Shown here one piece after another: positions 42,418-63,796 of a stretch of 64,000 bases of DNA. Position numbers and translations under genes: made by a program. Every line of letters starts with the position of its first letter. Positions within the stretch are counted from its first letter, which is position 1. Location: positions 62,001 through 126,000 of the forward strand of contig FZLS01000002.1 in the NCBI GenBank assembly GCA_900197625.1, given 5' to 3'. The stretch comes from Rhodobacteraceae bacterium Water-Bin34. Its GTDB lineage: Bacteria; Pseudomonadota; Alphaproteobacteria; Rhodobacterales; Rhodobacteraceae. The notes beneath the pieces were generated by a model. The model saw only the letters and a list, made by a program, of their open reading frames with translations. It searched no databases and had not been told where the DNA came from.

Positions 42418-43551
42418 TTAATTTTTTGATTGAACTTGAGTCCAAAAATCTCCAATTTCACATAGTCTTGCTTTGCGAATACCTGTTTTAGACTCTACCG
42501 ACACTTCTGTGTCAGCATTTGCATTTGATGCTTCGATCATAGCAAAACCGATGTTACCATTATAATCTGGCGAATAAACTGCAGATGTAACGAAACCTAT
42601 ATTTTTACCACCGATAAGTACTTCTTCTGGCATTGTAAGAGGAGGCATTTCAGATCCGTCTATTACAACTCCCATAAGGCGTTTTTTTATGCCATCTTCA
42701 CGTTGTTTAAGAAGTGCTTGTTTGCCAATAAAATCTACATCACTGTCCAGTGAGATATATTTTTCTAAACCAATTTCTAGTGGTGTATCTTCACGGTTCA
42801 TGTCGTTGCCATAAGAAAGAAGGCCAGCCTCAATTCTTTCAATTAGGTTTGGACAGCCGGCCCTAATGTTATATTTTTTGCCCTTTTCCCATATCGCATC
42901 CCATAATTCTGTTCCAAGCTGAGTGTCGTTAAGATAGATTTCAAATCCACCTTGTTTCGACCAACCTGATCTAGCTATATTTAACATTCGCCCTTTGAAT
43001 GGAAACTCTTTAAAATGAAAGAATTTTACATTTCTGATTTCCTCACCGAAGACATCAGCCATCAAATCTTCAGCCAAAGGCCCTTGTATAGCTAGTGGAG
43101 AGACGTCAGGTTCACAAACCTCTACATTTAAATCTAAACCTAATGCAATGCCTTGAACCCACAACAATAAGTCACTGTCTGCAATCGAAAACCAGTATTT
43201 ATCTTCAGCTAACCTTAGTGCTATTGGATCATTAATTATTGCACCACTTTGGTCGCAGATTGGTGCATAATAACATCTACCTATTTGTGCATTAGTAAGA
43301 TCTCTTGCAGATATCAAGCATGCCAATTTATGAGCATCCTTACCAAGTAATTGTACTTGCCGCTCAACAGATACATCCCAAATTTGAACATTTTCTTTTA
43401 GATGTTTGTAATCTGCTTGCAAATCTTCAAAAACAGTCGGTAACAACATATGATTATAAACTGTATATCCTGAAACACCCGAAGTAGATACTCGAGCTGT
43501 AAATGGCGTTGCTCTCAAACGCCTAGATGGGAAAAGCATTGCTCCAGCCAT
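42418..43551 (-). CDS. dmdA: DMSP demethylase family protein (GcvT-like)
   Basis: 377 residues. Tetrahydrofolate-dependent aminomethyltransferase fold. SRRLRATPFTARV, GYTVYNHMLLPTVF, IWDVSVERQV, CYYAPICDQSGAIINDP, IARSGWSKQGGFEIY and CPNLIERIEAGLLSYGNDM follow DmdA rather than the glycine-cleavage T-protein. DmdA moves a methyl from dimethylsulfoniopropionate to THF. AGGAGA lies 7 bases before the ATG. It is upstream of the flavin demethylase on the same strand and divergent from metY. Some DmdA-like proteins do not act on DMSP, so substrate is not certain. Confidence 0.72.
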   Translation of the reverse strand: MAGAMLFPSRRLRATPFTARVSTSGVSGYTVYNHMLLPTVFEDLQADYKHLKENVQIWDVSVERQVQLLGKDAHKLACLISARDLTNAQIGRCYYAPICDQSGAIINDPIALRLAEDKYWFSIADSDLLLWVQGIALGLDLNVEVCEPDVSPLAIQGPLAEDLMADVFGEEIRNVKFFHFKEFPFKGRMLNIARSGWSKQGGFEIYLNDTQLGTELWDAIWEKGKKYNIRAGCPNLIERIEAGLLSYGNDMNREDTPLEIGLEKYISLDSDVDFIGKQALLKQREDGIKKRLMGVVIDGSEMPPLTMPEEVLIGGKNIGFVTSAVYSPDYNGNIGFAMIEASNANADTEVSVESKTGIRKARLCEIGDFWTQVQSKN

Positions 43552-48244: not shown

Positions 48245-49849
48245 ATGATGAGCATTTATGACGATTTTGAAAAAAATTCTGCAAACCATGCAGCTTTATC
48301 GCCGCTTTCATTCATAAAACGCACTGCGTTGATGTTTCCAGACCGTGATGCTGTAATTTATGGAAGTCGTAAGTATAGCTGGTCGCAATTATATAAACGA
48401 TCAATTCAATTAGCATCTGCATTAAGTAAGAAGGGTGTTGGTAAAGGTGACACGGTTGCAATACTCGCTGCGAATACTCCCGAGATGATTGAAGCGCATT
48501 TTGGTATTCCTATGTCGGGCGCCATTTTAAATACTATAAATACCCGTTTAGACGCTGATACTATTTCATATATTCTTGGTCATGGAGAAGCTAAGGTTTT
48601 TATTGTTGATGGTGAACTTGCTCCTCAAGCTGCAGAAGCGATTAAAGGTAGAGATATACTTGTAGTTGATATTGCTGATTTGCAAGACAATCTAAATCCA
48701 AATCGGATTGGTACAATCGATTATACTGATTTTATTAAATTAGGTGAGGAAAGTGCAGATTGGGAAATGCCCACAGATGAATGGGATGCAATTGCACTAA
48801 ACTATACCTCAGGCTCTACAGGTCGACCCAAAGGTGTTGTTTATCATCATCGGGGTGCTTATTTGATGTCTATGGGCGTAATTGCTGATTGGGGATTACC
48901 AAGGCATCCAAAATACCTTTATACAGTTCCATTGTTTCACTGTAACGGATGGTGCCATGGGTGGGCTATGGCTGCTTTGGCTGGAACTATTGTATGCACG
49001 CGAGCTATTACACCTTCAGTAATTTACAATGCAATTAGTGAACATGGCATTACGCATTTTGGTGGTGCACCAATAGTTTTAGGAATGATTTTAAATGCAA
49101 ATGATAATGATCGAAAAAATTTCGATTATACAGTAAATGTAATGACAGCAGGTGCACCACCTCCGGCTGCAGTTTTAGAAGGCATTGAAAAACTTGGCTT
49201 TAATGTTACGCAAGTTTATGGATTAACTGAAACATATGGACACACAGTTATGTCTACTTGGAATAGTGATTGGGATGATTTGCCGCAAGATCAACGTGCA
49301 ATTATGAAAGCACGGCAAGGAGCAGGAATGGTCCATACTGATGGTTTGCGTGTAGTTGATACCAACGGAAAAGATGTCCCAGCAGATGGTAAAACATTTG
49401 GAGAAATTCTAATCCGTGGTAACACTGTTATGAAGGGATATTTGAAAAACCCAAAAGCAACATCTGAAGCTTTTACAGATGGATGGTTTAGATCTGAAGA
49501 TTTAGCCGTAATGCATGAAAATGGTTATGTTGAAGTTAAAGATAGATTAAAAGACATAATCATATCAGGCGGAGAGAATATTTCATCTGTTGAAGTTGAG
49601 GGTATTTTACACCGACATGAGGCTGTAGCTTTAGCTGCTGTTGTTGCAATGAAAGATGAAAAGTGGGGTGAAGTACCTTGTGCTTTTATTGAGTTAAAAG
49701 ATGGAAAATCTGTAACCGAAAACGAAATTATATCCTTTTGTCGTGATCATCTTGCTGGCTTTAAGCGCCCTAAAAAGGTTGTATTTGGAGTACTCCCAAA
49801 AACTGCAACAGGTAAGATCCAGAAATATGAATTAAGAAATAATATTTGA
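48245..49849 (+). CDS. AMP-forming acyl-CoA synthetase, DmdB-like
   Basis: 534 residues. Adenylate-forming motifs YTSGSTGRPKGVVYHHRG, GLTETYG and the C-terminal PKTATGKIQKYELR lysine are present. VPLFHCNGW is typical of the medium-chain/DmdB group. DmdB makes 3-methylmercaptopropionyl-CoA in the DMSP demethylation route; the nearby DmdA-family and MetY genes agree, but a general fatty acyl-CoA ligase cannot be excluded. The start may be the second ATG (48248). Last gene of the metY operon. Confidence 0.82.
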   Translation: MMSIYDDFEKNSANHAALSPLSFIKRTALMFPDRDAVIYGSRKYSWSQLYKRSIQLASALSKKGVGKGDTVAILAANTPEMIEAHFGIPMSGAILNTINTRLDADTISYILGHGEAKVFIVDGELAPQAAEAIKGRDILVVDIADLQDNLNPNRIGTIDYTDFIKLGEESADWEMPTDEWDAIALNYTSGSTGRPKGVVYHHRGAYLMSMGVIADWGLPRHPKYLYTVPLFHCNGWCHGWAMAALAGTIVCTRAITPSVIYNAISEHGITHFGGAPIVLGMILNANDNDRKNFDYTVNVMTAGAPPPAAVLEGIEKLGFNVTQVYGLTETYGHTVMSTWNSDWDDLPQDQRAIMKARQGAGMVHTDGLRVVDTNGKDVPADGKTFGEILIRGNTVMKGYLKNPKATSEAFTDGWFRSEDLAVMHENGYVEVKDRLKDIIISGGENISSVEVEGILHRHEAVALAAVVAMKDEKWGEVPCAFIELKDGKSVTENEIISFCRDHLAGFKRPKKVVFGVLPKTATGKIQKYELRNNI

Positions 49850-49886: not shown

Positions 49887-50672
49887 TTACTTGCCTTTCC
49901 AAACTGGTTTGCGCTTTTCTGAAAATGCTTTTGCACCTTCAAGTTGATCCTCTGATGTATAAAGAGTTTTCACAGTGGGAAGCTCACTTGATGTAATAGT
50001 GTTTAATGCATCTTGAAACTTCATATTCTCGGCTTCACGAACGACTTCTTTAATCGCAGCGTAAACTAAAGGTGGCCCAGCGGCCAAAATTTTTGCCATA
50101 TTGCGTGCTTCATCCATTAATTTTTCTGCAGGATGAATTTGATTTATTAATCCCCAACGTGCAGCTTCTTCAGCATCTATCCATCTTCCTGTAAAAAGCA
50201 TTTCCATTGCAATGTGATAAGGAATACGTTTTGGTAACTTTATCGAAGCTGCATCCGCAACTGTTCCTGAGTTTATTTCTGGTAAAGCAAATTGAGCATG
50301 CTCTGCAGAAAGAATAATGTCTGCAGATAATGCCAGCTCTAATCCGCCCCCACAACAAATGCCATTTACTGCAGCAATAACGGGTTTGTTTAGATTTTTT
50401 AATTCTTGAAGACCGCCAAAACCACCTTGGCCATAATCGCCGTCTACTTCATCACCATCAGCAGCAGCTTTCAAATCCCATCCTGGACAGAAAAACTTTG
50501 GACCAGCACCTGTAATTATAGCCACACGGAGTTCTGGATTATCTCTAAAACTTGCAAAAACATCTCCCATAATCCTACTTGTTTTTAGGTCTATGGCATT
50601 AGCTTTTGGCCGATCTAAAATGACTTCTAAAACATGACCTTCTTGTATTGTTTTGATAGGGCTTTCAGTCAT
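49887..50672 (-). CDS. caiD: Carnitinyl-CoA dehydratase (crotonobetainyl-CoA hydratase)
   Basis: 261 residues, crotonase fold. LDRPKANAIDLKTS, RVAIITGAGPKFF, GWDLKAAA and the C-terminal EKRKPVWKGK closely follow E. coli CaiD, and the two catalytic glutamates are Glu112 (GGGLEL) and Glu132 (LPEIN). It interconverts crotonobetainyl-CoA and L-carnitinyl-CoA. It overlaps the CoA ligase by 8 bases and is the last gene of the minus-strand carnitine operon. Confidence 0.85.
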   Translation of the reverse strand: MTESPIKTIQEGHVLEVILDRPKANAIDLKTSRIMGDVFASFRDNPELRVAIITGAGPKFFCPGWDLKAAADGDEVDGDYGQGGFGGLQELKNLNKPVIAAVNGICCGGGLELALSADIILSAEHAQFALPEINSGTVADAASIKLPKRIPYHIAMEMLFTGRWIDAEEAARWGLINQIHPAEKLMDEARNMAKILAAGPPLVYAAIKEVVREAENMKFQDALNTITSSELPTVKTLYTSEDQLEGAKAFSEKRKPVWKGK

Positions 50673-52701
50673 TTTTTTCTCCTATTTTTATTAATGCATC
50701 AGCTACAATGGCATCTGCTTGTCTACATATGAGTGGGTTGATCTCAACTTCTGATATTTTTCCATGATTGGAAATAACGAAATTTTGAACATTTTGAATG
50801 GTTTTTAATATGCTATCTATATCGGGAGATGGTGCTCCCCTATATCCTAAAAATAATGGCCATATTTTGAGTGTTTTTAATGATTTTAAAATGTCTTCAT
50901 TATTTGCTGGAATTAATAAAGAAATTTTATCATCAAATATTTCAGTGAGCTTTCCACCTGAAGCAATTGTTAAAACATAACCATGAGCTTCATCCAAGAC
51001 TACTCCAACTAACAGTTCTAATAAACTATCACCAACCATTTTTTCAATTAAAAATGTATTGCTTGGCATAACTTTTGCTGCACTAAGGATATCAGTTTGA
51101 TTTTGTAAATTTAATGCAACAAGTCCTGCTTCGGTCTTATGGGCGCTACCTTCGCCTTTCAAGACAACTGGATATCCAATTTTATTTGCAGCTTCTTCGA
51201 TATTTTCAAAATTAGCTACAGTTTGTGAAATTGGCAGTTGGATATCAAATTCACCAAGCATTTTTTTTGCTGTCGCTTCAGTTAATACCTTTGCATTTAA
51301 TGGAATGATTGGAGGTAAAATATTTTCAGATTTTATTTTTGAATATGTTGCGAATTTGGCGATAGAGTCTAAAGCACTTTCGATACCCCCAAATGGAATA
51401 ATACCTTTTTCTAATAATTCTTTTGCAATCTTTTCGGGTAAAGTATCTGAAATGGAACCAACAACTCCAATCTGACATCCTGTTTTGTTTTTTGCCTCAA
51501 TAAGAGAGGGGATGACATCAACCCACATTTGTGGGTCACACCGATCAATGCGTGGAAAGTCTAAAACTAATAAGCCAATACAGTCTGTTTCCTTTAGTGC
51601 AGCAATAAAAGTTTGGGTCATTGCCTCCCAATTACCCCATATATAAGTATGGTAATCTAATGGATTTGCTAATTTTACCATTTTTCCCAAAGTATTTCGT
51701 AACCTTGCAGATTGATTTTCGCTCAGTGGTGGAAAATTAATTCCAACTGCCTGGCCTATGTCGGCCATTAAGCTAGCTTCACCTCCAGAACATGACATTG
51801 ATAAGACATTATTATTTGGTTGCTCCCCAACCACATGAGCTAATTTTAATGTTTCTATAAATGTAGTTAGATTTTGTATTTGAACTACACCTAACCGGCT
51901 GAATAGAGCAGTAGCGCCGGCGTTACTGCCAGCGATTGAAGCAGTATGTGAAATCGTCGCAGCCCGTGCCTGATCAGAACTTCCAACTTTTAATATAATT
52001 ATGGGTTTTCCTAGATTATTGGCGATCTGTACCATACTTTCAAATTCAACTACATCTTTGATCCCTTCAATGTGAAGGCCTAAAGCTGTTACACGTGGAT
52101 CTTTCAAAAATTCAGTAGCCATTTCTGCTAAACTGACTTGAGCTTGGTTTCCTACAGAAGAGATAAAAGCAATTGGAAGTCCTCGTGTCTGCATCGTCAA
52201 ATTGATAGCAATGTTTGAGGATTGTGTAATAATGGCTACACCAGTTTCCACCCGTTCGCCACCATGCTGATCTGGCCAAAGAAGTGAACCATCAAGGTAA
52301 TTTATAAATCCATAACAATTTGGACCCAAGATAGCCATTTCGCCAGCTGCCAATAATAACTGATGTTCTAAATCAGCACTCTTTGCATCTTCTGATACAG
52401 ACTCTGAAAACCCACTTGCAAAACAAACAGCGCCTTTGGCTTTTATGGAGTTTAATGATCTTATTACTTCAATTGTTGTGAATCTATTCACGCCTATGAA
52501 ACTTGCATCTGGTCCGTATGGAAGATCTTCCACAGATTTGAAGCAAGGAATTCCATTGATTTCAGAACGTTTTGGATGGACTGCCCATATTGGGCCTTGA
52601 AAATCCATTTTTTTGCATTGTTCAATAACATTCTCACACCATGATCCGCCACCTATTACAGCAATAGATTTTGGATGTAGTAAGCTTCCAAGATTACTCA
52701 T
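50665..52701 (-). CDS. ADP-forming-type acyl-CoA synthetase (acetate--CoA ligase family)
   Basis: 678 residues in the single-chain ACD layout: CoA-binding Rossmann domain (LLHPKSIAVIGGG, about 1-130), succinyl-CoA-ligase-like domains (GPNCYGFINY and SHTASIAGSNAGATALF) and a C-terminal ATP-grasp domain (about 470-678, VVLKGEGSAHKTEAGLV). It abuts the acyl-CoA dehydrogenase and overlaps caiD, so it probably activates gamma-butyrobetaine or a carnitine derivative. Unlike the AMP-forming CaiC, ACD enzymes are readily reversible. Substrate is inference. Confidence 0.82.
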   Translation of the reverse strand: MSNLGSLLHPKSIAVIGGGSWCENVIEQCKKMDFQGPIWAVHPKRSEINGIPCFKSVEDLPYGPDASFIGVNRFTTIEVIRSLNSIKAKGAVCFASGFSESVSEDAKSADLEHQLLLAAGEMAILGPNCYGFINYLDGSLLWPDQHGGERVETGVAIITQSSNIAINLTMQTRGLPIAFISSVGNQAQVSLAEMATEFLKDPRVTALGLHIEGIKDVVEFESMVQIANNLGKPIIILKVGSSDQARAATISHTASIAGSNAGATALFSRLGVVQIQNLTTFIETLKLAHVVGEQPNNNVLSMSCSGGEASLMADIGQAVGINFPPLSENQSARLRNTLGKMVKLANPLDYHTYIWGNWEAMTQTFIAALKETDCIGLLVLDFPRIDRCDPQMWVDVIPSLIEAKNKTGCQIGVVGSISDTLPEKIAKELLEKGIIPFGGIESALDSIAKFATYSKIKSENILPPIIPLNAKVLTEATAKKMLGEFDIQLPISQTVANFENIEEAANKIGYPVVLKGEGSAHKTEAGLVALNLQNQTDILSAAKVMPSNTFLIEKMVGDSLLELLVGVVLDEAHGYVLTIASGGKLTEIFDDKISLLIPANNEDILKSLKTLKIWPLFLGYRGAPSPDIDSILKTIQNVQNFVISNHGKISEVEINPLICRQADAIVADALIKIGEKND

Positions 52702-53862
52702 CTATGCACCCAATGGGCGTAGCAATTCACGACTAATAATATGGCGTTGTATTTCGGATGTTCCATCCCAAATACGTTCTACGCGAGCATCTCTCCAAAA
52801 CCGTTCAATAGGAAAATCATCCATTAAGCCCATGCCACCAAATATTTGCAATGTTTTATCAGTTACACTTGCTAAAGTTTCTGATGCAAATACTTTTGCG
52901 CTTGCGATTTCTCGGTTTGATGGTTGTCCCTGATCAAGCATCCAAGCAGATTTTAATGTCAATAAATCTGCAGCATCTATATCTGTAATCATGTCAGCAA
53001 TTTGAAAGCCTACACCCTGGAATTTTCCAATTGCTTGACCAAATTGTTTTCGTTCTGCAGCATAATTTAGTGCATAATCAAAGCATCTTCTAGCTCGACC
53101 AACTGAAAATGCTGCAACAGTTATTCTTGTTGCATAAAGCCATTCATTCATTACCGCAAATCCACCATCAATTTCGCCTAAAACAGCCTCTTTGGGTAAA
53201 CGACAATTATCAAAATCTAAAATGCAATTTTTATATCCCTTATGGCTAACTGAATTGTACCCATTTCGAACTTCAAAGCCTTTTGTTCCGCGATCTACGA
53301 GAAATGTAGTAATCCGTTTTTTTGGGCCACGTGGTGTTTCGTCAACACCAGTTGCAACAAATACTATGAAGAAATCAGCATGCTCAGCACCAGATATAAA
53401 GTGTTTTGATCCATTAATAATCCAATCTGAACCATCAGATACAGCGCTGCATTTCATTCCACGAACATCACTACCTGCATCTGGCTCAGTCATGGCCAAT
53501 GCATCTGTGATCTCACCTTTTACGGCTGGTAGAAGATAGCGTTCTATTTGCTCATCACGACATGCCATAAGGATATTTTGAGGTCTTCCAAAAAAGTGAG
53601 TTAAAGCCATAGAGCCTCTACCAAGTTCTCTTTCTACAAGTGTAAAATCAAGATGGCTTAAACCTGCGCCGCCTACACTTTCAGGAAAATTACATGCATA
53701 AAACCCCAAATCTATAACTTTTTGCTTTATTGATTGGCCTAATTCTAGAGGAACATTTCCAGTTCGTTCAACTTCAGCTTCATGAGGGTAAATTTCTTTT
53801 TCAACAAAATCACGTACAGTATCAACGATCATTTCTTGCTCTTGTGATAAGCCAAAATTCAT
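52702..53862 (-). CDS. Acyl-CoA dehydrogenase, likely gamma-butyrobetainyl-CoA dehydrogenase
   Basis: 386 residues. ALAMTEPDAGSDVRGM and the FAD-binding QIFGGMG segment are typical. At the catalytic-base position the motif reads IWDGTSEIQRH, with Asp366 where medium-chain dehydrogenases have Glu in YEGT. In this operon it should oxidise gamma-butyrobetainyl-CoA to crotonobetainyl-CoA, passing electrons to ETF. Too short for DmdC (about 590 residues). Overlaps the carnitine dehydrogenase gene by 4 bases. Confidence 0.85.
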   Translation of the reverse strand: MNFGLSQEQEMIVDTVRDFVEKEIYPHEAEVERTGNVPLELGQSIKQKVIDLGFYACNFPESVGGAGLSHLDFTLVERELGRGSMALTHFFGRPQNILMACRDEQIERYLLPAVKGEITDALAMTEPDAGSDVRGMKCSAVSDGSDWIINGSKHFISGAEHADFFIVFVATGVDETPRGPKKRITTFLVDRGTKGFEVRNGYNSVSHKGYKNCILDFDNCRLPKEAVLGEIDGGFAVMNEWLYATRITVAAFSVGRARRCFDYALNYAAERKQFGQAIGKFQGVGFQIADMITDIDAADLLTLKSAWMLDQGQPSNREIASAKVFASETLASVTDKTLQIFGGMGLMDDFPIERFWRDARVERIWDGTSEIQRHIISRELLRPLGA

Positions 53863-55295
53863 TGTTTGCCTCCCCTTGGATCTTCAATTTTACTATGAGC
53901 AGCTGCAATTCTTTCTAAATTGTTGAGAACATCTTTTCGTGGTTCACATGCGCGCCTTGTTTCTAGGCTTACATGTATTAACATTTGCTCCCCAGTAGCC
54001 ATCAATGTGCCATCTTCACCATACATTTGATGGAATAAACGCATTTTTTTTCCTTCTCCCTGTAGAATATATGATTTTACATGAATGTTTGATCCTGCAT
54101 GGGTCTCGGCCAAAAACTTAATTGCAATGTCTACGGTAAAATAGCTTAATCCAGATGCAATGTATGCTTCATTTGCCCCCACCGTTTTCATGATTATATC
54201 AGCAGCATCAGAAAAAATTTGTCCATATCTGCTTTCATTCATATGTCCATTGTAGTCTGTCCAATCGTTTGGAATGACTCTATTGATGGTAGTAATGGGA
54301 TCATCATATTCTGATGGCAATTCTGGTTTTATAGTTTTTTCGTGATTATTAATTAAAGCACCTGCAGCAGTATTTTCATTCTTTAATGATCGAAGTATTG
54401 CTATTAAATTGTTATCACGTAATCTCTCTAGTTCCCGAATAGATTTATGCCCTGATTGCGCATCGGATTGGTTGGCAATTTGCTCAATTAGCTCATCAGT
54501 TAGCTCGGGAACATCCATGAGTTTAGTCCATGGCCATTGTAGACACGGACCGAATTGAGAGATGAAATGTGCCATTCCTTCTTCCCCTCCGGCTATTCTG
54601 TAAGTTTCGAACAATCCCATTTGAGCCCATCGCAAACCAAAACCATATCGAATGGCATCATCAATTTCTTGTGTTGTGGCAATTCCATCTTTTATGAGCC
54701 ATAAACCTTCGCGCCAGACAGCTTCTAAAAACCTATCTGCAATGTGTGCATCAATTTCTTTTCTTACGTGTAATGGGAACATTCCTAAGGAAGTTAATAT
54801 TTCTTTTGCTTTATTTATTATAGTTTCTGAATTTGCAGGGGATGGAACCAATTCAATCAATGGTAATAAATAAACTGGATTAAAAGGGTGTGTAACAATA
54901 ATTGAATCGGGTCTTATAGATCCTTCTTGAAGCTCTGATGGTTTGAAACCTGATGTTGAGGAGCCAATAACTGCATCAGAAGATGCATGATTTATTATTT
55001 CATTAAATACTTTATGTTTAAGGTCTAATCTTTCGGGCACACTTTCTTGGATCCATGTAGCGCCTTCAACTGCGTCTTTTATGCTTTCACAAAAATTAAG
55101 TGATCCTTCAACAGGTAAATTTACATCGTATAACATTGGTAAAGCATGTCGTGCATTTTCCAAAACTGCTTTTATTTTGCGCTCAGACTCAGGATCTGGA
55201 TCATACAAATTTACATCCCATCCATTTAAAAGAAATCGTGCTAACCAGCCTCCACCAATGACGCCACCACCAATTATTGCTGCTATTTTTCTCAT
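53859..55295 (-). CDS. L-carnitine dehydrogenase fused to a hotdog thioesterase
   Basis: 478 residues. N-terminal 3-hydroxyacyl-CoA-dehydrogenase-like domain with NAD site IIGGGVIGGGW (from residue 7), TSGFKPSEL and THPFNPVYLLPLIEL; C-terminal hotdog domain (about 335-460) with DWTDYNGHMNESRYG. It corresponds to P. aeruginosa CdhA and CdhB joined, as in rhizobial carnitine dehydrogenases. The first domain makes 3-dehydrocarnitine from L-carnitine; the second should hydrolyse betainyl-CoA to glycine betaine. Confidence 0.9.
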   Translation of the reverse strand: MRKIAAIIGGGVIGGGWLARFLLNGWDVNLYDPDPESERKIKAVLENARHALPMLYDVNLPVEGSLNFCESIKDAVEGATWIQESVPERLDLKHKVFNEIINHASSDAVIGSSTSGFKPSELQEGSIRPDSIIVTHPFNPVYLLPLIELVPSPANSETIINKAKEILTSLGMFPLHVRKEIDAHIADRFLEAVWREGLWLIKDGIATTQEIDDAIRYGFGLRWAQMGLFETYRIAGGEEGMAHFISQFGPCLQWPWTKLMDVPELTDELIEQIANQSDAQSGHKSIRELERLRDNNLIAILRSLKNENTAAGALINNHEKTIKPELPSEYDDPITTINRVIPNDWTDYNGHMNESRYGQIFSDAADIIMKTVGANEAYIASGLSYFTVDIAIKFLAETHAGSNIHVKSYILQGEGKKMRLFHQMYGEDGTLMATGEQMLIHVSLETRRACEPRKDVLNNLERIAAAHSKIEDPRGGKQ

Positions 55296-55339
55296 TTTTT
55301 TCTCATTTTATAAATGTCTTAATTAAGTTTTGTTTAATG

Positions 55340-56104
55340 CTATGTAATAGCTTCAGTGTGGCCATCAACGGCCAAAGCTTGACCTGAGATTTTTATACCA
55401 GATGGACTATCTAAAAAGTGAATCATGTTCGCGATGTCATCTGCAGTAACCCATGTTTTCAAAGATACAGCTGAAACATAATCATCGCGTACCTTTTGCT
55501 CGTCGACACCTCTGACTTTAGCTTCATTTTGAACAACTCGATCCATCCGATCACCTTCTACAGCTCCAGGACATATACAATTTACACGAATACCATCATT
55601 GCCCATTTCCATTGCTAATGTTTTGGTTAATCCAACAATGCCCCATTTTGCTACAGCATATGGACTGCGATAGGGGTAACCAAACAATCCTGCAGATGAT
55701 GATAAAAGAATTATCAAGCCAGATTTATTTTTGCGCATATGTTTTGCAGCCCACCGAACTAATAAAAAAGTACCGTCCAATGTTGTTGCAATTGTATCTT
55801 TCCAATCTGAATATTTTAAATTTTCAATTAAAGCTGCAGGACCACCTATACCAGCACCAGCGATTACGACATCAACACCATCTAAGAATTCATCACATGC
55901 AGTAAAAAAATCATCCATTTCTTTTTCGTTAGTTACATTTGCGCACACAGCTAGTGAATTGGGGTATGTCTTTTTGAATGATTGGATCGCATTTGGATCA
56001 ATATCACAAATTGCAACTTTTGCTCCTTCTGCAAGATAATTTTTTGCTATGACCAAGCCAATTCCTGCAGCTCCTGCAGTTATGACTACTCGCTTTTCAC
56101 TCAT
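55340..56104 (-). CDS. Short-chain dehydrogenase/reductase
   Basis: 254 residues. Cofactor motif TAGAAGIG, NAG-equivalent AGAG, catalytic Ser in LSSSAG and YAVAK, so an active classical SDR. It overlaps cdhC by 4 bases and belongs to the carnitine operon. Candidate roles, both inference: oxidation of D-carnitine, or reduction of acetoacetate released by the BKACE to 3-hydroxybutyrate. Confidence 0.88.
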   Translation of the reverse strand: MSEKRVVITAGAAGIGLVIAKNYLAEGAKVAICDIDPNAIQSFKKTYPNSLAVCANVTNEKEMDDFFTACDEFLDGVDVVIAGAGIGGPAALIENLKYSDWKDTIATTLDGTFLLVRWAAKHMRKNKSGLIILLSSSAGLFGYPYRSPYAVAKWGIVGLTKTLAMEMGNDGIRVNCICPGAVEGDRMDRVVQNEAKVRGVDEQKVRDDYVSAVSLKTWVTADDIANMIHFLDSPSGIKISGQALAVDGHTEAIT

Positions 56105-57009
56105 TTGGGTAACCGTTTTACAAGGTTTAGTTTTTCACGAGTTTCTTCTGGGGTCATGATTGAGCTGCCCATAGCTTCTATTATAGTTACAGCACGTTCT
56201 ACTAGTGCTTCATTGGTAGCTAATTGGCCCTTAGCCAACCATAAATTATCTTCTAATCCAACACGCACATTACCACCTGCCAATACTGCTGCTGCTACAT
56301 ATGGCAATTCGTTGCGACCAATGGAAAATGCAGACCAATTCCAATCATTCGGTACGTTATTAACCATAGCCATGAATGTATTTAAATCATCTGGTGCACC
56401 CCAAGGGATTCCCATACATAATTGAACAAGTGCTGGAGATTTTAATATTCCTTTTTCCACCAAGTTTTTGGCTAACCATAAATGCCCAGTATCAAAGGCT
56501 TCAATTTCTGGTTTTACTCCTAAACTTTCCATCATTGACCCCATGGCTTCCAACATGCCAGGTGTATTTGTCATTACATAATCTGCTTCTGCAAAGTTCA
56601 TTGTTCCACAATCTAGGGTGCAAATTTCGGGTAGGCATTCAGCTACATGTGCCACACGTTCTTCAGCACTAGCCATGTCTGTTGAATTTGAAAGTGGTAA
56701 TGGGCTGTCGGGAGATCCAAAAACCATATCGCCACCCATTCCTGCTGTTAGATTAAGAACCATATCTACTTCAGATTCTCTAATACGGTCAGTTACTTCA
56801 CGATAAAGCTTTAAGTCACGTGATGGCACACCTGTATCAGGATCCCTAACATGGCAGTGAACAATTGCAGCACCAGCTTTTGCAGCTGCTATAGCACTTT
56901 CTGCAATTTCTTTTGGACTTCTTGGCACATGAGGGCTTCGGTCCTGTGAGCTTCCTGAGCCTGTGATTGCGCAAGTGATGAATACTTTTGAGTTCATTGA
57001 GAGGGGCAT
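56101..57009 (-). CDS. cdhC: BKACE-family dehydrocarnitine cleavage enzyme (DUF849)
   Basis: 302 residues. Beta-keto acid cleavage enzyme fold with zinc ligands His51 and His53 (HCHVRD) and Glu in GLEDNLW. With acetyl-CoA it should cleave 3-dehydrocarnitine to betainyl-CoA and acetoacetate. Start ATG 57009 with AAGGAT 7 bases before. First gene of the carnitine operon, divergent from a GlxA-type regulator, as in the P. aeruginosa cdh locus. Confidence 0.87.
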   Translation of the reverse strand: MPLSMNSKVFITCAITGSGSSQDRSPHVPRSPKEIAESAIAAAKAGAAIVHCHVRDPDTGVPSRDLKLYREVTDRIRESEVDMVLNLTAGMGGDMVFGSPDSPLPLSNSTDMASAEERVAHVAECLPEICTLDCGTMNFAEADYVMTNTPGMLEAMGSMMESLGVKPEIEAFDTGHLWLAKNLVEKGILKSPALVQLCMGIPWGAPDDLNTFMAMVNNVPNDWNWSAFSIGRNELPYVAAAVLAGGNVRVGLEDNLWLAKGQLATNEALVERAVTIIEAMGSSIMTPEETREKLNLVKRLPK

Positions 57010-57049
57010 ATTAATATCCTTTGATTATTATAAATTATCGTAATCCTCT

Positions 57050-57068
57050 TGCATTAAGTAAGTATGCA
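57050..57068. promoter_or_regulatory. Candidate operator between the carnitine operon and its regulator
   Basis: TGCAT (57050-57054), nine-base spacer TAAGTAAGT, ATGCA (57064-57068): an inverted repeat in the 75-bp divergent intergenic region. AraC/GlxA regulators more often use direct repeats, so this is tentative. Confidence 0.35.
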
Positions 57069-57084
57069 CTATTAGACATAATAT

Positions 57085-58035
57085 ATGCAAAATTTACCAA
57101 CTCCCAAATCTTTTCCCATTACAATCGATTTTTTAGTTTATGATCGTTTTTCAAATCATTGTATGGCGAATACCTTAGAACCTTTCAGAGCAGCAAATAC
57201 TTTAAGTGCAAATGATGTTTATGAATGGAATTTTGTAACACTTGATGGATTATCTGTTCAAAGTTCCAGTGAATTGAGATTAATGCCAGATCAAAAATTT
57301 GGTGAAACTAAACGTGCAGATTTTTTATTTATTATCGCTTCATACGATTTTCGAAAGCATGATAATGTTGTTTCCAGGCGAGCTCTTCGTGCATCAGTGA
57401 AGCGCTATAAAAATATTATAGGATTAGATACTGGGCCATGGATGATGGCTGGAGCTGGTATATTAGATAATCATCGTGCCACGGCTCATTGGGATATTAT
57501 TGATGAATTTTCAGAAGAGTTTGTGGATGTTGATGTTGAACGGCAAAAATATATTCTCGATGGAAATATAGGAACTTGTGGAGGCGCTATGGCTGCATTT
57601 GATCTCAGTTTGTCTATTATAAGAGAGATAAATGGGGTCACAGTTGCATTGGATGTTGCCTCAATGTTTTTAAGTGGAACTGACTTACCTCAAGAGTACA
57701 AAAAAAATATTGTTTATAAAATTCCAGAAGTGCAAAAAGCTACTGAAATAATGCATGAAAATATTGAAGATATTCTAACAATACCAAATATTGCAAAAAC
57801 AATACAAATTAGCCCAAAACAATTACACAGATTTTTTTTAAAAGACCTTGGTCAATCACCAAAGCAAGTTTATTCTAATATAAGATTATCATTTAGTAGA
57901 CACCTACTGCAAGCAACAGAGAAGCCAATTCGTGAAGTTGCTCTGAGATCTGGGTATCAAAATGTCAGTGCATTTTCACGTGCTTTTAAAGCTCGCTTTA
58001 ATCAAACGCCAAGTGAATATAAAAATCATTTTTAA
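57085..58035 (+). CDS. cdhR: GlxA/AraC family transcriptional regulator, CdhR-like
   Basis: 316 residues. N-terminal DJ-1/PfpI-like sensor domain (about 10-200; GLDTGPWMMAGAGILDNHRATAHW) and C-terminal double helix-turn-helix (about 220-316; IREVALRSGYQNVSAFSRAFKARFNQTPSEYK). CdhR of Pseudomonas is of this family and activates carnitine catabolism. Divergence from cdhC with 75 bp between makes control of that operon likely. It could also control the trio downstream. Confidence 0.82.
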   Translation: MQNLPTPKSFPITIDFLVYDRFSNHCMANTLEPFRAANTLSANDVYEWNFVTLDGLSVQSSSELRLMPDQKFGETKRADFLFIIASYDFRKHDNVVSRRALRASVKRYKNIIGLDTGPWMMAGAGILDNHRATAHWDIIDEFSEEFVDVDVERQKYILDGNIGTCGGAMAAFDLSLSIIREINGVTVALDVASMFLSGTDLPQEYKKNIVYKIPEVQKATEIMHENIEDILTIPNIAKTIQISPKQLHRFFLKDLGQSPKQVYSNIRLSFSRHLLQATEKPIREVALRSGYQNVSAFSRAFKARFNQTPSEYKNHF

Positions 58036-58134
58036 TATATTTTTGCGTTTGCAGCTTAATCAAGGTCGTTAAGTGACTAGTCAGGTTTGTGGATTTATTC
58101 TATTAATACCATAAGCCAATATGAGGGAATTTTA

Positions 58135-59151
58135 ATGCAACATGTTACTAATCAGTATTTTAAAACTGGCATTCAAATGGCAGGAGTGCCATTACCTAGC
58201 ACAAATAGTGCACGCCCAGTTGGAATGTTAAAAACATGTCCTGCACATTTCCAAACGCCTCTTATATCTGTTGACAGTTTTTCTGAAAGTTTGGGTGTTG
58301 CATCAATTCATGTTAAAGACGAAAGAGATAGAATGAAGCTTGGAAGCTTCAAAGCTCTTGGTGCTGCGTATGTGATAGCAAGCGATGCAGCTGAGGGAGA
58401 TGTTTCAAACACAACTTACATAACTGCATCTGCTGGAAACCATGGCCTTTCTGTTGCTGCTGGAGCGTCAGCATTTGGTGCCAAAGCTGTGGTTTATCTT
58501 TCAGACACTGTACCTGAAGATTTCGCGACGCGATTGACTAAAATTGGAGCAACTGTTGTTAGAGCAGGGGAAAATTACGAAGCTTCAATGGTTGCTGCGC
58601 AAAAAGCTGCTGCTGATAATGATTGGGTTTTACTTTCAGATAGTTCATGGGATGGGTATTTTGACAGACCATGGAGATTGATGGAGGGTTATACTGTGAT
58701 GGCAGCGGAAATTATTCACCAAATAGAGCATGTTCCTACACATATTTATTTACAAGCTGGTGTTGGAGGTTTGGCTGGAGCAATGGCTGCATGCTTTAGA
58801 GCTGCTTGGGGCGATGCACCTATGATCACTGTTGTTGAACCCGCATTCGCACCGGCTTTAACAAATTCAATTATTGAGGGAAAATTTGTTTCTACTTCAG
58901 GCCCAGTTTCTGATATGGGCCGACTTGATTGCAAAGAAGCGTCACTGATAGCATTAGCTGGATTATCAAGAGATGCTAATAGTTTTGTAACTCTTACAGA
59001 AAAAGAATGTTTGGATGCAATAAAAGTACTACCAAAATATAACTTAGATACATCGTCATCAGGAGGTGCAGGCATAGCAGCCATGACGATGTCAGATCTT
59101 CCATCAGATGCACGTGTTCTATGTATATTATCAGAAGGACCAGATGAATAA
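58135..59151 (+). CDS. Fold-type II PLP enzyme, diaminopropionate ammonia-lyase-like
   Basis: 338 residues. KDERDRMKLGSFKALGAAYVI with the PLP lysine at Lys73, TASAGNHGLSVAAGA substrate loop and QAGVGGLAGA phosphate-binding loop. The sequence resembles diaminopropionate ammonia-lyases more than threonine dehydratases or EutB. ATG 58135 has GAGGGA upstream; an in-frame ATG at 58087 was rejected. First gene of a trio coupled by 1- and 4-base overlaps. Substrate unknown. Confidence 0.8.
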   Translation: MQHVTNQYFKTGIQMAGVPLPSTNSARPVGMLKTCPAHFQTPLISVDSFSESLGVASIHVKDERDRMKLGSFKALGAAYVIASDAAEGDVSNTTYITASAGNHGLSVAAGASAFGAKAVVYLSDTVPEDFATRLTKIGATVVRAGENYEASMVAAQKAAADNDWVLLSDSSWDGYFDRPWRLMEGYTVMAAEIIHQIEHVPTHIYLQAGVGGLAGAMAACFRAAWGDAPMITVVEPAFAPALTNSIIEGKFVSTSGPVSDMGRLDCKEASLIALAGLSRDANSFVTLTEKECLDAIKVLPKYNLDTSSSGGAGIAAMTMSDLPSDARVLCILSEGPDE

Positions 59152-60287
59152 TGCAGAGGGGTTTTCTAGATAAAGAATTTCAAAATCGTGTTAGTAACGC
59201 TCAAAGTTTAATGGTTAAAAATGATTTATCAGCTTTGCTGCTCACAACTGAACCTGATGTTCGTTATTTCACAGGATTTCTTACTCAATTCTGGCAAAGT
59301 CCTGCTCGGCCGTGGTTTTTAATCGTTCCAGTCTCTGGAAAGCCAATCGCTGTAATACCAAGTATTGGGCACTCATTGATGAATTCAACTTGGATAGATG
59401 ATATTAGAACTTGGCTTGCTCCAAACATGGTTGATGATGGTATTGGCCTCTTAATTGATACTTTAAACGAAGTTTCTAAAGATGGAAGAATTGGAATTCC
59501 AGATGGATTAGAGTCTCATGTTCGTATGCCTTATGCGGATATGAAAAAGTTATCTGAAAAAGTAAAAATATCATCTGATAATGGGATTGTTCGTCAACTT
59601 CGCATGGTGAAGTCAGAAGCTGAAATAAACAAGATTAGGCATGCATGTAGTATTGCTGACAATGCATTTAATTCAGTTAAAGATTTTGCAGAAATAGGAA
59701 TGACACAATCAAATATAAATCGTAAATTTCAATCTGTGTGTTTGCAGGCAGGTGCGGATAGTGTTCCTTATGTTTCAATGGGACTAGGCGCTGGGGGTTA
59801 CTATGATGTTATTTCTCCAGCTGCAGATATTCAAATTAAGGATGGCGATATTCTTATGTTGGATACTGGTTTAATGTGGGATGGTTACTTTTGTGATTTT
59901 GATAGAAATTTTTCTATGGGTAAGCCAGATCCCCGCGTTATTTCTTGTCATGGTTATTTAGTTGATGCTGTTATGGCAGGATTAGAAGTTGCAAAAAGTG
60001 GATCAACAGCTGCGGATATTTTCCATGCAATGGCAAAAATTACAGGAGCAGGAAAAGCTTTAGAAGCAGGACGATTTGGTCATGGATTGGGAATGCAATT
60101 GACAGAATGGCCATCTTTTATTCCTGATGATCATACCGAAATCGTAGAAGGAATGGTTTTAACATTAGAACCATCAATAGAAACTATAGATGGTCGCATT
60201 ATGGTTCATGAAGAAAATATTGTAATTCGAAAAGACGGTGCAGAAAAGCTTTCAACATTTTATAAAGAGATGGTAATTATTGAATGA
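59151..60287 (+). CDS. M24 family metallohydrolase (creatinase/prolidase fold)
   Basis: 378 residues. An N-terminal creatinase-like domain (about 1-140) and a pita-bread domain with all five metal ligands visible: Asp in MLDTG, Asp in CDFDRN, His in GHGLG, Glu in TLEPS and Glu in VHEENIV. It could be an Xaa-Pro peptidase or an amidohydrolase such as creatinase or ectoine hydrolase; the N-terminus does not match DoeA well. Coupled to both neighbours. Confidence 0.85.
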   Translation: MQRGFLDKEFQNRVSNAQSLMVKNDLSALLLTTEPDVRYFTGFLTQFWQSPARPWFLIVPVSGKPIAVIPSIGHSLMNSTWIDDIRTWLAPNMVDDGIGLLIDTLNEVSKDGRIGIPDGLESHVRMPYADMKKLSEKVKISSDNGIVRQLRMVKSEAEINKIRHACSIADNAFNSVKDFAEIGMTQSNINRKFQSVCLQAGADSVPYVSMGLGAGGYYDVISPAADIQIKDGDILMLDTGLMWDGYFCDFDRNFSMGKPDPRVISCHGYLVDAVMAGLEVAKSGSTAADIFHAMAKITGAGKALEAGRFGHGLGMQLTEWPSFIPDDHTEIVEGMVLTLEPSIETIDGRIMVHEENIVIRKDGAEKLSTFYKEMVIIE

Positions 60288-61015
60288 ATAATTTTTCATA
60301 TAAATTGGAAGAAAATTATAATCTATCGATGGGCTTGATTGTATTGCAAGCTGACCAAAGAATTGAATTAGATGCGCGGCAACAATTTGATCCAAAAGTA
60401 AATCTTCACATCTCGCGAATTCCTTCAGCAGAAACCGTATCTACTGACACTTTAAAACAAATGGAAAGAGATCTACCATTAGCAGTATCCTTATTCCCGA
60501 ATGCGGTTAATTTTGATGTTGTTGGCTATGGATGTACTTCTGGTACGTCTGTTATTGGTGCTGATAATATTGCAAAAATTATAAAAGATAGCTGCAAAAC
60601 TACACATGTTACAGAACCTGTGAGTGCTTTAATAGCTGCTTGTAGATATCTTAATTTAAAGCGAGTTGGTTTTTTATCACCCTATGTTGAAACAGTCAGC
60701 TCTGGGCTTCGCCAAACTTTACTTTTATCAGGTATAGAGACGCCAACATTTGGAAGCTTCAACGAAGAAATAGAAGAAAAAGTTGTCAAAATTAGTACAC
60801 AATCAATTTTTGAAGCTGCTGTAGAGTTAGGGGGGCAAGATATTGATGCTCTTTTCTTATCATGCACGAATTTAAATACTCTTCCAGTGATAAAACGTAT
60901 TGAAGAAAAAATTGGAAAACCTGTATTATCTAGTAATCAGGTATTAACTTGGCATATGGGCCAGTTAGCTAAAGGTGGATTATTAAAAAATTGTGAGGGG
61001 TCTTTATTTAATTGA
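60284..61015 (+). CDS. Asp/Glu racemase superfamily protein (maleate isomerase / EutA-like)
   Basis: 243 residues. Both superfamily cysteines are present, Cys84 in GYGCTSGT and Cys194 in FLSCTNL, which suggests a racemase or isomerase rather than a one-cysteine arylmalonate decarboxylase. ATGA overlap with the M24 gene. Its end is only 3 bases from the end of glnE on the other strand. Substrate unknown. Confidence 0.82.
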   Translation: MNNFSYKLEENYNLSMGLIVLQADQRIELDARQQFDPKVNLHISRIPSAETVSTDTLKQMERDLPLAVSLFPNAVNFDVVGYGCTSGTSVIGADNIAKIIKDSCKTTHVTEPVSALIAACRYLNLKRVGFLSPYVETVSSGLRQTLLLSGIETPTFGSFNEEIEEKVVKISTQSIFEAAVELGGQDIDALFLSCTNLNTLPVIKRIEEKIGKPVLSSNQVLTWHMGQLAKGGLLKNCEGSLFN

Positions 61016-61018
61016 TAT

Positions 61019-63796
61019 TTATTTAAAACCACTCATTACTTTTTCTATTAATTTACAATTACCGCTTAAACTTTTCTCGATTTTTTGCCCAATATATTCA
61101 ATTGATTCAAGGTGGGTATTATTCATAAATAATTCAATAGCTGGAGCACTAAGATTATCTGTATTAAATTTTTTCATACCCAATAATCTTTTCAAATGTT
61201 CAATAGAAGTGAAGAGTTCCAATGCTTCGAATAAAACCTCAAAATCCTTTTGTGAAAGTATTTTTTTACCAAAAGCATTTTTTAGCTGCTTAGCTGGTTT
61301 GTGATTTCTTCCATTAGTTAATAATGTCAGGCTTTGGGCAAGAAGCTCCAAATCTAAGATACCTCCAAGTGGTTTTTTAATTGGCCATTTTTGTTTTTTA
61401 TCAATTTCTAACTTTGAAATCCGTTGCCTCATTTCATTTACTTCAATGGATATTTCTCCTGGATCAAATTTTTTATCAAGAATATCTATCAAGGCTCTAT
61501 TAATCTCATTACAAAGCTTTTGATCTCCTGCTACAACCCGTGCTCTTGTTAAGGCAAGCCTTTCCCATAGCCACGCTTTGGTTTTTTGATAATTTATAAA
61601 GCCGTCTAGACTTGTAGCGACAGTACCAGCTCTACCAGAAGGTCGAAGCCTCATATCAACCTCATATAATCTCCCGTAAGACATTGATGATGATAAACCA
61701 CTTATTAAAGTCCGTGTAACTTTTTGGAAATAAGTTCTTATATCTAACTCTTTAAAGCTAGAAACTGAGTCTGGATTCCCGTCATAAATCACAATTATAT
61801 CTAAATCAGAAGTACAGCTCATTTCTTGAGATCCCATTTTACCCATTGCTAAGATTGCTACAGAACTTCCAGCAATTTCCCCATACCGTCTTTGTGTTTC
61901 AGAAAGTGCTTGTTCTAAGCATAAGTTTAAACATGTTTGTGCTAAATCTGAATAAGCTTGTTCAGCACGTTTTGATGTTATGATTTGGGTTAATTGAGCA
62001 AATACAATTTTAAAGTGCTCTTCAGATTTCCAGGCTCGAGTATTAATTAAAGAGGCTTCAAAATCATTAGAACCCAATAGACGGGCATTTAAACTTTTTT
62101 GAAAATCTTTTAAATTATTTGGTATTGCGTCAGGGCCAGAATCTGCGAGTCCATCTAAAACGTTTATTTGTTTTGACAAAGCATCAGCTAATTCTTTTGA
62201 CAAACTAGTTACATAAATAACTTTTTTCAAAATATCTGGCCTACGTTCGAAAAGTGAAAACAATTGAACACCTGAAGTTAAGCCTGATAAAAAATACTCA
62301 AAATAATCTAATACCTCGTTTGGGTTCTTAGATTCTTGAGCGTAATTCCATATATTTTGTAATTGTGCTTCAAAAACTTCAACTGCTCGTTCAGATTTGA
62401 AGGCCTGTAGTTTCCGCCACTCGTCAAAGCGTATTTTTTGTTGATCAGTCGGTTCTGTATTATTGTTGATTATTCTAGATGAAGTTTCTGTAGCTGAATA
62501 TGTTTTTTGTAATTGAACTTTAATATCTTTTTTGAAGTCTTCTAATTCATTATATCCAGTTAGTGCGCAAAGGTGTTTTAACTCCTCAAGATTATCAGGT
62601 ATTGAATGACTTTGTGTGTCTCTAAGCATTTGGATCCGATGCTCTATTTTCCTATGATGTCGCAATGCTGTGATTAAAGTTTCAGCTATTTTTGGTGTAA
62701 TACGTTTTTGATCAGCTAATGCTTTAAGTGCACCTTGTGTTGTGATTTCTCTCAATTCATGGTGTCTGCCTCCATAAATTAATTGATGGGCTTGAGCAAA
62801 AAATTCAATTTCTCTTATGCCACCTTGGCCAAGTTTGAGATTGTGTCCTTCAACAGTGATCGGACCTGATATTTCTTTATGTTGGCGTGATTGGATTAAA
62901 AGCTGTTCAATCTCTCCAATTGCTGCAAAATCTAACTCTGGTCTCCAAATAAATTTTTGCATCCGAAGTAGGAAATTGTTTCCAATTTTTTTATTTCCAG
63001 CGCAAACACGTGCTTTTATAAATGCCGCACGTTCCCATGTTCTTCCTTCACGTATATAATATGCTTCAGCGCTTTGCATTGTGGGGCAAACTGATGTCAC
63101 TGAAGGGTTTGGACGTAATCGTAAATCAGTTCTAAAAACATATCCATATGCAGTATTTTTGGAAATAAGAGAAAAAACTTTTTGAGTAACTTTGATAAAT
63201 ATGGATCGATACTCTGAAACTTTGTCTACTGGGAATAAGGAGCTATCAAAAAGAAAAATTAAATCTATATCAGATGAATAATTAAGTTCGTGTGCACCCA
63301 TTTTCCCCATTGCTAAAACAAACATTCCAGCTGACTCATTTTCATCAAGAAATTTCTTTTTGATCTTGCCTTGGTTAACACAAATTTCAAGTTCAGCGTT
63401 TAAGGCTGTCTGAACCGCAAAATCAGCAAAATTTGTTAATTTTTCTGTTATCCACTCAAGTGGGCGCAAATGTGATAAATCTATTAATGCTAAAACTAAA
63501 GCTGTTCTTGCTTTGGCAGTTCTCAATGCGATGTTTATATCACCATCTAATTGACGGGCTGCTGTAACAATTTGATCAGGACTGAGTTGCCAATGTTTCA
63601 ATAGCCAATCACTATGTTGTTCTAATAATTTCCTTAAATAGGAACTACTGCCGGCAACACCTTTTAACAAATCTTGAGTTTTAGAGGGTAAGTCAATATA
63701 TTTTGAAGTTATGTTTTCACTGATTATAGGATCAAATGGTATTGGAAAATGCGATATGGGTTCTTTGAAAATCATAAAGTAATCTTGGTATTCCAT
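61019..63796 (-). CDS. glnE: Glutamine synthetase adenylyltransferase / adenylyl-removing enzyme
   Basis: 925 residues (E. coli 946). Two nucleotidyltransferase domains: the N-terminal deadenylylation site LAMGKMGAHELNYSSDIDLIFLFD and the C-terminal adenylylation site LAMGKMGSQEMSCTSDLDIIVIYD. It controls glutamine synthetase by reversible AMP attachment under PII control. ATG 63796 or 63775 (MIFKEPISHF) may be the start; neither has a clear ribosome-binding site. Confidence 0.95.
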   Translation of the reverse strand: MEYQDYFMIFKEPISHFPIPFDPIISENITSKYIDLPSKTQDLLKGVAGSSSYLRKLLEQHSDWLLKHWQLSPDQIVTAARQLDGDINIALRTAKARTALVLALIDLSHLRPLEWITEKLTNFADFAVQTALNAELEICVNQGKIKKKFLDENESAGMFVLAMGKMGAHELNYSSDIDLIFLFDSSLFPVDKVSEYRSIFIKVTQKVFSLISKNTAYGYVFRTDLRLRPNPSVTSVCPTMQSAEAYYIREGRTWERAAFIKARVCAGNKKIGNNFLLRMQKFIWRPELDFAAIGEIEQLLIQSRQHKEISGPITVEGHNLKLGQGGIREIEFFAQAHQLIYGGRHHELREITTQGALKALADQKRITPKIAETLITALRHHRKIEHRIQMLRDTQSHSIPDNLEELKHLCALTGYNELEDFKKDIKVQLQKTYSATETSSRIINNNTEPTDQQKIRFDEWRKLQAFKSERAVEVFEAQLQNIWNYAQESKNPNEVLDYFEYFLSGLTSGVQLFSLFERRPDILKKVIYVTSLSKELADALSKQINVLDGLADSGPDAIPNNLKDFQKSLNARLLGSNDFEASLINTRAWKSEEHFKIVFAQLTQIITSKRAEQAYSDLAQTCLNLCLEQALSETQRRYGEIAGSSVAILAMGKMGSQEMSCTSDLDIIVIYDGNPDSVSSFKELDIRTYFQKVTRTLISGLSSSMSYGRLYEVDMRLRPSGRAGTVATSLDGFINYQKTKAWLWERLALTRARVVAGDQKLCNEINRALIDILDKKFDPGEISIEVNEMRQRISKLEIDKKQKWPIKKPLGGILDLELLAQSLTLLTNGRNHKPAKQLKNAFGKKILSQKDFEVLFEALELFTSIEHLKRLLGMKKFNTDNLSAPAIELFMNNTHLESIEYIGQKIEKSLSGNCKLIEKVMSGFK

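Follow-up and report, generated by a model that had tools for sequence, protein, structure and literature searches.

A six-gene operon in a Rhodobacteraceae genome that probably degrades gamma-butyrobetaine through carnitine to glycine betaine

The genome of Rhodobacteraceae bacterium Water-Bin34 (GCA_900197625.1) carries a compact set of genes that an original prediction, made from the sequence alone, had described as a six-gene operon converting gamma-butyrobetaine to glycine betaine through a reversible CoA ligase. The genes lie in the 64,000-nucleotide stretch of contig FZLS01000002.1 that was analysed here (positions 62,001 to 126,000; hereafter the window), where six complete, ATG-started open reading frames occupy positions 49887-57009 of the minus strand. 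In the direction of transcription they encode BKACE (CdhC; 56101-57009), an SDR oxidoreductase (55340-56104; PF13561/PF00106), a fusion of L-carnitine 3-dehydrogenase with a 4HBT_2 thioesterase domain (CdhAB; 53859-55295; PF02737, PF00725 and PF13279), an acyl-CoA dehydrogenase (52702-53862; PF02771/02770/00441), an ADP-forming acyl-CoA synthetase of the ACD type (50665-52701) and a CaiD-like crotonobetainyl-CoA hydratase (49887-50672). The predicted reading frames, order and assignments stand, with two amendments: 'cdhAB' is one fused gene, and a GlxA/AraC-type regulator is divergent from the operon. Three of the five junctions overlap (by 4, 4 and 8 nucleotides); the dehydrogenase and ligase genes abut, and 44 nucleotides separate the SDR gene from that of CdhAB. 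Such an arrangement is non-random beyond chance.

The sequences show which genes are present, how they are ordered and conserved, their catalytic residues and the dependence of the ligase on CdhAB. The genes probably form a catabolic operon for trimethylammonium acids, leading from gamma-butyrobetaine through carnitine to glycine betaine, although we infer every substrate and direction. The ADP-forming ligase, our candidate gamma-butyrobetaine:CoA ligase, would use ATP to convert gamma-butyrobetaine to gamma-butyrobetainyl-CoA, which the acyl-CoA dehydrogenase, the candidate gamma-butyrobetainyl-CoA dehydrogenase, would turn into crotonobetainyl-CoA with transfer of electrons to electron transfer flavoprotein (the alpha subunit of which is encoded in the genome). 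The CaiD-like hydratase would then yield L-carnitinyl-CoA. Once CoA had been taken off, the free carnitine would be converted by CdhA to 3-dehydrocarnitine, BKACE would react this with acetyl-CoA to give betainyl-CoA and acetoacetate, and the CdhB domain would convert betainyl-CoA to glycine betaine. The SDR may channel D-carnitine to 3-dehydrocarnitine. The pathway as it had been predicted is well supported: by homology, by a gene order shared between two bacterial orders, by the nested co-occurrence of ligase and CdhAB, and by the published use of a rhizobial gamma-butyrobetaine:CoA ligase.

CdhAB matches the NCBIfam model for carnitine 3-dehydrogenase (NF005716) with 733.7 bits against a cut-off of 592, and its C-terminal thioesterase domain (PF13279) spans residues 344-460. 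BKACE is the sole PF05853 match of the genome (346.2 bits, cut-off 24.8); its presumed specificity for 3-dehydrocarnitine follows from the neighbouring genes. For comparison we used 121 evenly drawn genomes of the same order as the window, Rhodobacterales (the order sample), from which 81 loci were assembled: the window and one stretch from each of 80 further genomes with the ligase, out of 85 (the remaining five being G025, G028, G049, G053 and G106). Copies of BKACE, 65-86% identical, occur in 29 of these 81 stretches, 26 of them together with CdhAB and three alone, while 52 stretches contain neither. The SDR, which is closest to hydroxybutyrate-dehydrogenase/FabG-type SDRs, was found in nine of the 81, all nine with both BKACE and CdhAB, and a 45% identical relative overlaps CdhAB behind BKACE in Phaeobacter sp. 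G2, in a stretch without the dehydrogenase, ligase and CaiD genes. Most likely the SDR belongs to the carnitine branch, although a 48% identical relative in Mesorhizobium, which lies near betI and an ABC transporter but more than 8 kb from any BKACE or CdhAB, counts against this. Our guess is that it is a D-carnitine dehydrogenase or some other accessory of that branch.

The ligase combines the Pfam domains CoA_binding_2, Succ_CoA_lig and ATP-grasp_5, and its AlphaFold2 model has a mean predicted local distance difference test score (pLDDT) of 86.4. Two histidines, H252 and H521, are invariant, each being present in all 161 orthologues aligned (sequences interrupted by a stop, those of L053 and L104 among them, were excluded from the orthologue alignments). 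H252 aligns with the phosphohistidine His292 of DddX, and H521 corresponds to the second histidine of ADP-forming synthetases, in the ATP-grasp part. The modelled fold, the three domains and the two histidines thus make membership of the ADP-forming superfamily well supported, in agreement with the class originally predicted. The nearest solved structure, both by sequence and by fold, is DddX itself (7cm9), an ATP-dependent lyase of dimethylsulfoniopropionate (DMSP) within the ACD superfamily, and the match is co-linear over the full length. One could therefore imagine that the ligase is a DddX-type lyase and the operon one for DMSP. This is extremely improbable, however, as ADP-forming ligases almost equal DddX in the fold search (Z of 36.2) and as, apart from the phosphohistidine, the five DddX active-site residues taken from PMC8163506 and mapped onto the alignment of the ligase and DddX sequences are not shared: W391>H351, E432>Q391, F435>V394, Y181>L141 and D208>L168. 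The window protein thus lacks both the lyase base Glu432, the matching position of which is variable among the 161 orthologues, and the sulfonium contacts Trp391 and Phe435. Three aromatic residues of the ligase, W142, Y350 and W355, are invariant and a fourth, W393, is kept in 150 of 161 orthologues; as far as the alignment can suggest, these are candidates for holding the trimethylammonium group. In one genome of the order sample the ligase is encoded in two frames with a junction near residue 307 (G040:C1:301740-303763), and the ligase match of L199 likewise falls into two pieces; the gene may be decaying there, or the enzyme may have a form with two subunits.

The hydratase has 'crotonobetainyl-CoA hydratase' (NF002936) as its best NCBIfam family and is 54% identical to Escherichia coli CaiD. 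E112 and E132, which we take to be the positions of the two catalytic glutamates of hydratases, are kept in at least 98% of 166 orthologues and both align with Glu in E. coli CaiD. Together with the dehydrogenase, the ligase and the hydratase form a cassette that is found in 78 of the 81 loci of the order sample (77 by a stricter count). Two of the three exceptions are contig ends; in the third (G051) some 16 kb separate the ligase from the dehydrogenase, which is grouped with BKACE and CdhAB. The exact six-gene order of the window, for which a search in other marine alphaproteobacteria had been proposed, recurs: six of the 81 loci have it, the window counted, seven have the five-gene order without the SDR and 14 have the cassette followed by BKACE. 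A second, uneven set of loci (L120-L199) was retrieved with Sinorhizobium CaiD as the best 80 of 583 matches. Here BKACE, CdhAB, dehydrogenase, ligase and CaiD are contiguous in 65 of the 80, Sinorhizobium medicae (L148) among them. They are also contiguous in Rhizobium sp. NLR16a, where an ABC transporter follows the five-gene row. One more locus of the 80 (L157) has the same row except that the dehydrogenase was matched in two pieces. Of the other 14, five are rhizobial and truncated where their contigs end, and nine come from Rhodobacterales and have the cassette alone. The annotated records that were inspected name the three cassette products 'acyl-CoA dehydrogenase family protein', 'acetate--CoA ligase family protein' and 'carnitinyl-CoA dehydratase'.

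This conservation bears on whether the cassette might serve mainly crotonobetaine or D-carnitine, the latter racemised via crotonobetainyl-CoA, rather than gamma-butyrobetaine. Ligase and CaiD would suffice for such a function, and the SDR of the window may hint at D-carnitine. The dehydrogenase would then be superfluous, yet it is kept with the ligase in those 78 loci and is the most conserved member of the cassette (median identity 80%), whereas the SDR is present in only nine of the 81. We regard this alternative as unlikely.

The distribution of ligase and CdhAB across the 121 genomes was scored by hand from match lists, taking the ligase as present at 540 bits or more (plus the split ligase of G040) and CdhAB at 500 bits or more; one genome, G052, has a stop inside CdhAB and inside two ligases. 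Both genes occur in 86 genomes, CdhAB alone in 13, neither in 22 and the ligase alone in none (Fisher p 1.9e-15, ignoring kinship). Counted per genus the values are 45 with both, seven with CdhAB only, six with neither and again none with the ligase only (Fisher p 4e-5, likewise ignoring kinship), and five genera (g3, g4, g6, g7 and g27) include some species without ligase and without CdhAB. Since the cassette mostly lies at a distance from CdhAB, linkage alone cannot account for this nesting, and the most parsimonious interpretation has the cassette feeding CdhAB. The same pattern weighs on the suggestion that the dehydrogenase acts like gut BbuA, an acyl-CoA-dehydrogenase-like enzyme with the same substrate (PMC8364193), which would eliminate trimethylamine from gamma-butyrobetainyl-CoA to give crotonyl-CoA for subsequent hydration. 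This would not explain why the cassette co-occurs so strictly, and shares operons, with CdhAB and BKACE, and we consider it very unlikely.

Several observations weigh against a pathway from gamma-butyrobetaine through carnitine as drawn above. The dehydrogenase is not CaiA (NF002885 174.6 bits, cut-off 540), and its catalytic-base position 366 (window codon 52765-52767) holds Asp in 145 and the usual Glu in only 13 of 158 orthologues. Within the order sample, all 67 members of a lineage with about 80% identity to the window have Asp366, and 10 of 11 in a lineage with about 60% identity have Glu, the eleventh (L060) being a different dehydrogenase picked up by the search; E. coli CaiA has Gly at the aligned position. 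CaiD, with 326.1 bits, is below the NF002936 equivalog cut-off of 500. The ligase is far less conserved than its partners, with a median identity to the window of 48% in the order sample against 80% for the dehydrogenase and 76% for CaiD. The operon of the window contains no transporter gene, and its assembly is listed as 5.1% contaminated. Finally, on a plasmid of Sinorhizobium numidicum (L115), the ligase (44%) and CaiD (63%) precede dehydrogenases with only 23% identity to that of the window, and the BKACE upstream reaches only 31%; this is perhaps a variant pathway.

If the cassette feeds CdhAB, and CdhAB acts on free carnitine, CoA must leave carnitinyl-CoA. The original prediction held that no separate carnitinyl-CoA thioesterase is visible and suggested that the ligase, running in reverse, could perform this step. 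We surveyed the genes in a single co-directional run with the ligase in 167 loci, two of which (L113 and L114) contain distant ligase relatives only. The recurring partners were CaiD (165 loci), the dehydrogenase (147), BKACE (80), CdhAB (75) and the SDR (5), followed by ABC transporter parts (35, 21, 14 and 13), a class II aldolase (13), a cluster that matched no Pfam family (11) and a peptidase-S15/CocE-type hydrolase (6). Non-core co-directional clusters numbered 80, 18 of them present in at least two loci and 62 in a single locus, and Pfam scans covered one representative of each of the 18 and of two of the 62. No thioesterase or CoA-transferase was found among these 20 scanned clusters, seven of which had no family at 1e-5, although such scans could miss short or unusual thioesterases; the hydrolases among them were the peptidase-S15/CocE type already mentioned and a GDSL type (one locus). 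At 1e-5 the thioesterase domain of CdhAB, used as query, matched nothing else in the loci, and E. coli CaiB gave a single match, in the S. numidicum plasmid locus. That locus disturbs a clean picture of absent partners: some 3.5 kb ahead of its ligase lies a thioesterase of the PaaI type, and a CaiB/BaiF gene follows at about 9 kb on the other side.

The absence of a recurring partner favours release of CoA by the ligase itself, but the prediction holds only in that no thioesterase recurs beside the cassette: CdhAB has a thioesterase domain of its own, which is an equal rival. Reverse action of the ligase on carnitinyl-CoA, recovering ATP, is compatible with the data, and on sequence grounds we regard it as a possibility somewhat short of even. 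ADP-forming ligases operate near equilibrium, so that concentrations would set the direction. Hydrolysis of carnitinyl-CoA by the CdhAB domain or another thioesterase is about as plausible. The pathway would then be the same with a ligase working forwards only and one ATP spent per turn, CoA being removed by CdhAB or a housekeeping thioesterase, which we likewise place a little below an even chance. The 4HBT_2 domain and the presence of CdhAB in all 86 ligase genomes speak for it, as a thioesterase activity would always be available. Against it, the matches in the 13 genomes with CdhAB and no ligase retain the thioesterase domain, so that the domain must serve more than carnitinyl-CoA, and the S. 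meliloti carnitine dehydrogenase/thioesterase SM2011_c01638, described as a betainyl-CoA thioesterase, acts on betainyl-CoA too (PMC12482172).

Slightly more doubtful is the broader proposal that a single ligase, as a two-way CoA carrier charging gamma-butyrobetaine and discharging carnitinyl-CoA, is standard in Rhodobacterales and Rhizobiaceae. Were it true, the activated half of the pathway would cost no net ATP and would need neither a CaiB-type CoA-transferase nor a thioesterase of its own; coupling to a nucleotide would take the place of CoA-transfer. We offer the reversible ligase as a tentative and testable hypothesis, not as a result; the operon provides a clean test case for an ADP-forming ligase running both ways within one pathway. 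Other candidates in the genome of the window fitted poorly. Its two CaiB-family proteins, one of them truncated where the contig ends, score 108.5 and 95.9 bits with the CaiB model (cut-off 413) and have succinate-glutarate CoA-transferase as best family (531.5 and 227 bits, cut-off 750). Neither of its two TauD-family proteins fits gamma-butyrobetaine dioxygenase, one being nearest to taurine dioxygenase, under the cut-off, and the other matching no NCBIfam family at 1e-20.

The route resembles known systems to different degrees. The enterobacterial cai operon (CaiTABCDE) shares the CoA-level chemistry linking gamma-butyrobetaine, crotonobetaine and carnitine as well as the related CaiD. In contrast to its AMP-forming ligase CaiC, the window ligase is ADP-forming; the genome has no close CaiB, the dehydrogenase is only 29% identical to CaiA, and the pathway would run oxidatively. 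Pseudomonas-type catabolism by CdhA, CdhB and CdhC has in common with the window a carnitine dehydrogenase, a betainyl-CoA thioesterase, BKACE and a GbdR-like regulator, whereas in the window dehydrogenase and thioesterase are fused and coupled to the gamma-butyrobetaine branch. Closest are the rhizobial operons with the five-gene row, from which the window differs by its SDR and by a regulator that groups with those of other Rhodobacterales rather than with rhizobial regulators. In the rhizobium-like strain HK4, carnitine arises from gamma-butyrobetaine along a path that parallels the breakdown of fatty acids (PMC2131755), and S. meliloti BcoAB is a gamma-butyrobetaine:CoA ligase that was employed to prepare gamma-butyrobetainyl-CoA (PMC8364193). 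The S. medicae genome has a single detectable relative of the window ligase, located in the carnitine operon, and searches of S. meliloti plasmids gave distant relatives only. BcoAB is therefore a likely orthologue of the window ligase, and the operon probably represents the pathway already known from rhizobia, here in a different bacterial order. The source paper of BcoAB is reportedly Bazire et al. 2019.

Carnitine and related betaines nourish marine roseobacters. R. pomeroyi has a carnitine transporter (PMC10130141) and raises CdhABC on N-osmolytes including carnitine (PMC12478193), and in islands of SAR11 a gamma-butyrobetaine dioxygenase occurs alongside carnitine dehydrogenase and BKACE (PMC12421898). 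In the accessible parts of the papers that our literature search returned, which did not include the key rhizobial paper, no genes are named for gamma-butyrobetaine use in marine roseobacters. The cassette, present in 86 of 121 genomes as judged by the ligase, offers a gene target for roseobacter use of another nitrogen-bearing osmolyte. On a plasmid of Palleronia sp. LCG004 (L119), a TauD-family dioxygenase, a class II aldolase and an ABC transporter lie upstream of the cassette and BKACE-CdhAB, where the two known ways of making carnitine may thus be neighbours.

A GlxA/AraC-type regulator (57085-58035, plus strand; PF01965 and PF12833) is divergent from the operon at a distance of 75 nucleotides; it is GbdR-like, with 169 bits for NF052371 (GbdR), below the cut-off of 480. 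Divergence is the rule, as 46 of 48 regulators in the order sample are divergent and 55-155 nucleotides from the dehydrogenase or BKACE match, and two loci (L066 and L075) have two regulators each, the first preceding the cassette and the second preceding BKACE-CdhAB. The intergenic region 57010-57084 contains a candidate operator with repeated TGCA half-sites. Such repeats are enriched in 46 divergent intergenic stretches, where the top dyads occur in 8-10 of 46 against a shuffle maximum of 3-4, with a spacing in the family, judged by eye, of 15 or 21 nucleotides.

A paralogous second package was present in all three genomes inspected (L208, L209, L210 and L211). It comprises BKACE, a dehydrogenase, a ligase (35-36% identity), CaiD, its own regulator and a CdhA match without the thioesterase part. 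In one genome (G106) CdhA and CaiD are about 180 kb from the remaining genes; a beta-lactamase-family protein follows the ligase in two of the three, and an aldehyde dehydrogenase lies beside CaiD in L209.

Around the operon, an AMP-binding acyl-CoA synthetase (48245-49849) is convergent with it. The DMSP demethylase DmdA (42418-43551, minus strand; NF009133 527.8 bits, cut-off 410) is encoded about 6 kb away, so that two methylated-osmolyte routes lie close by each other. On the other side, genes for a pyridoxal phosphate-dependent lyase, an M24-peptidase-like protein and an EutA-like protein (127.8 bits, cut-off 318) adjoin one another at 58129-61015 on the plus strand, resembling an ectoine-utilisation set.

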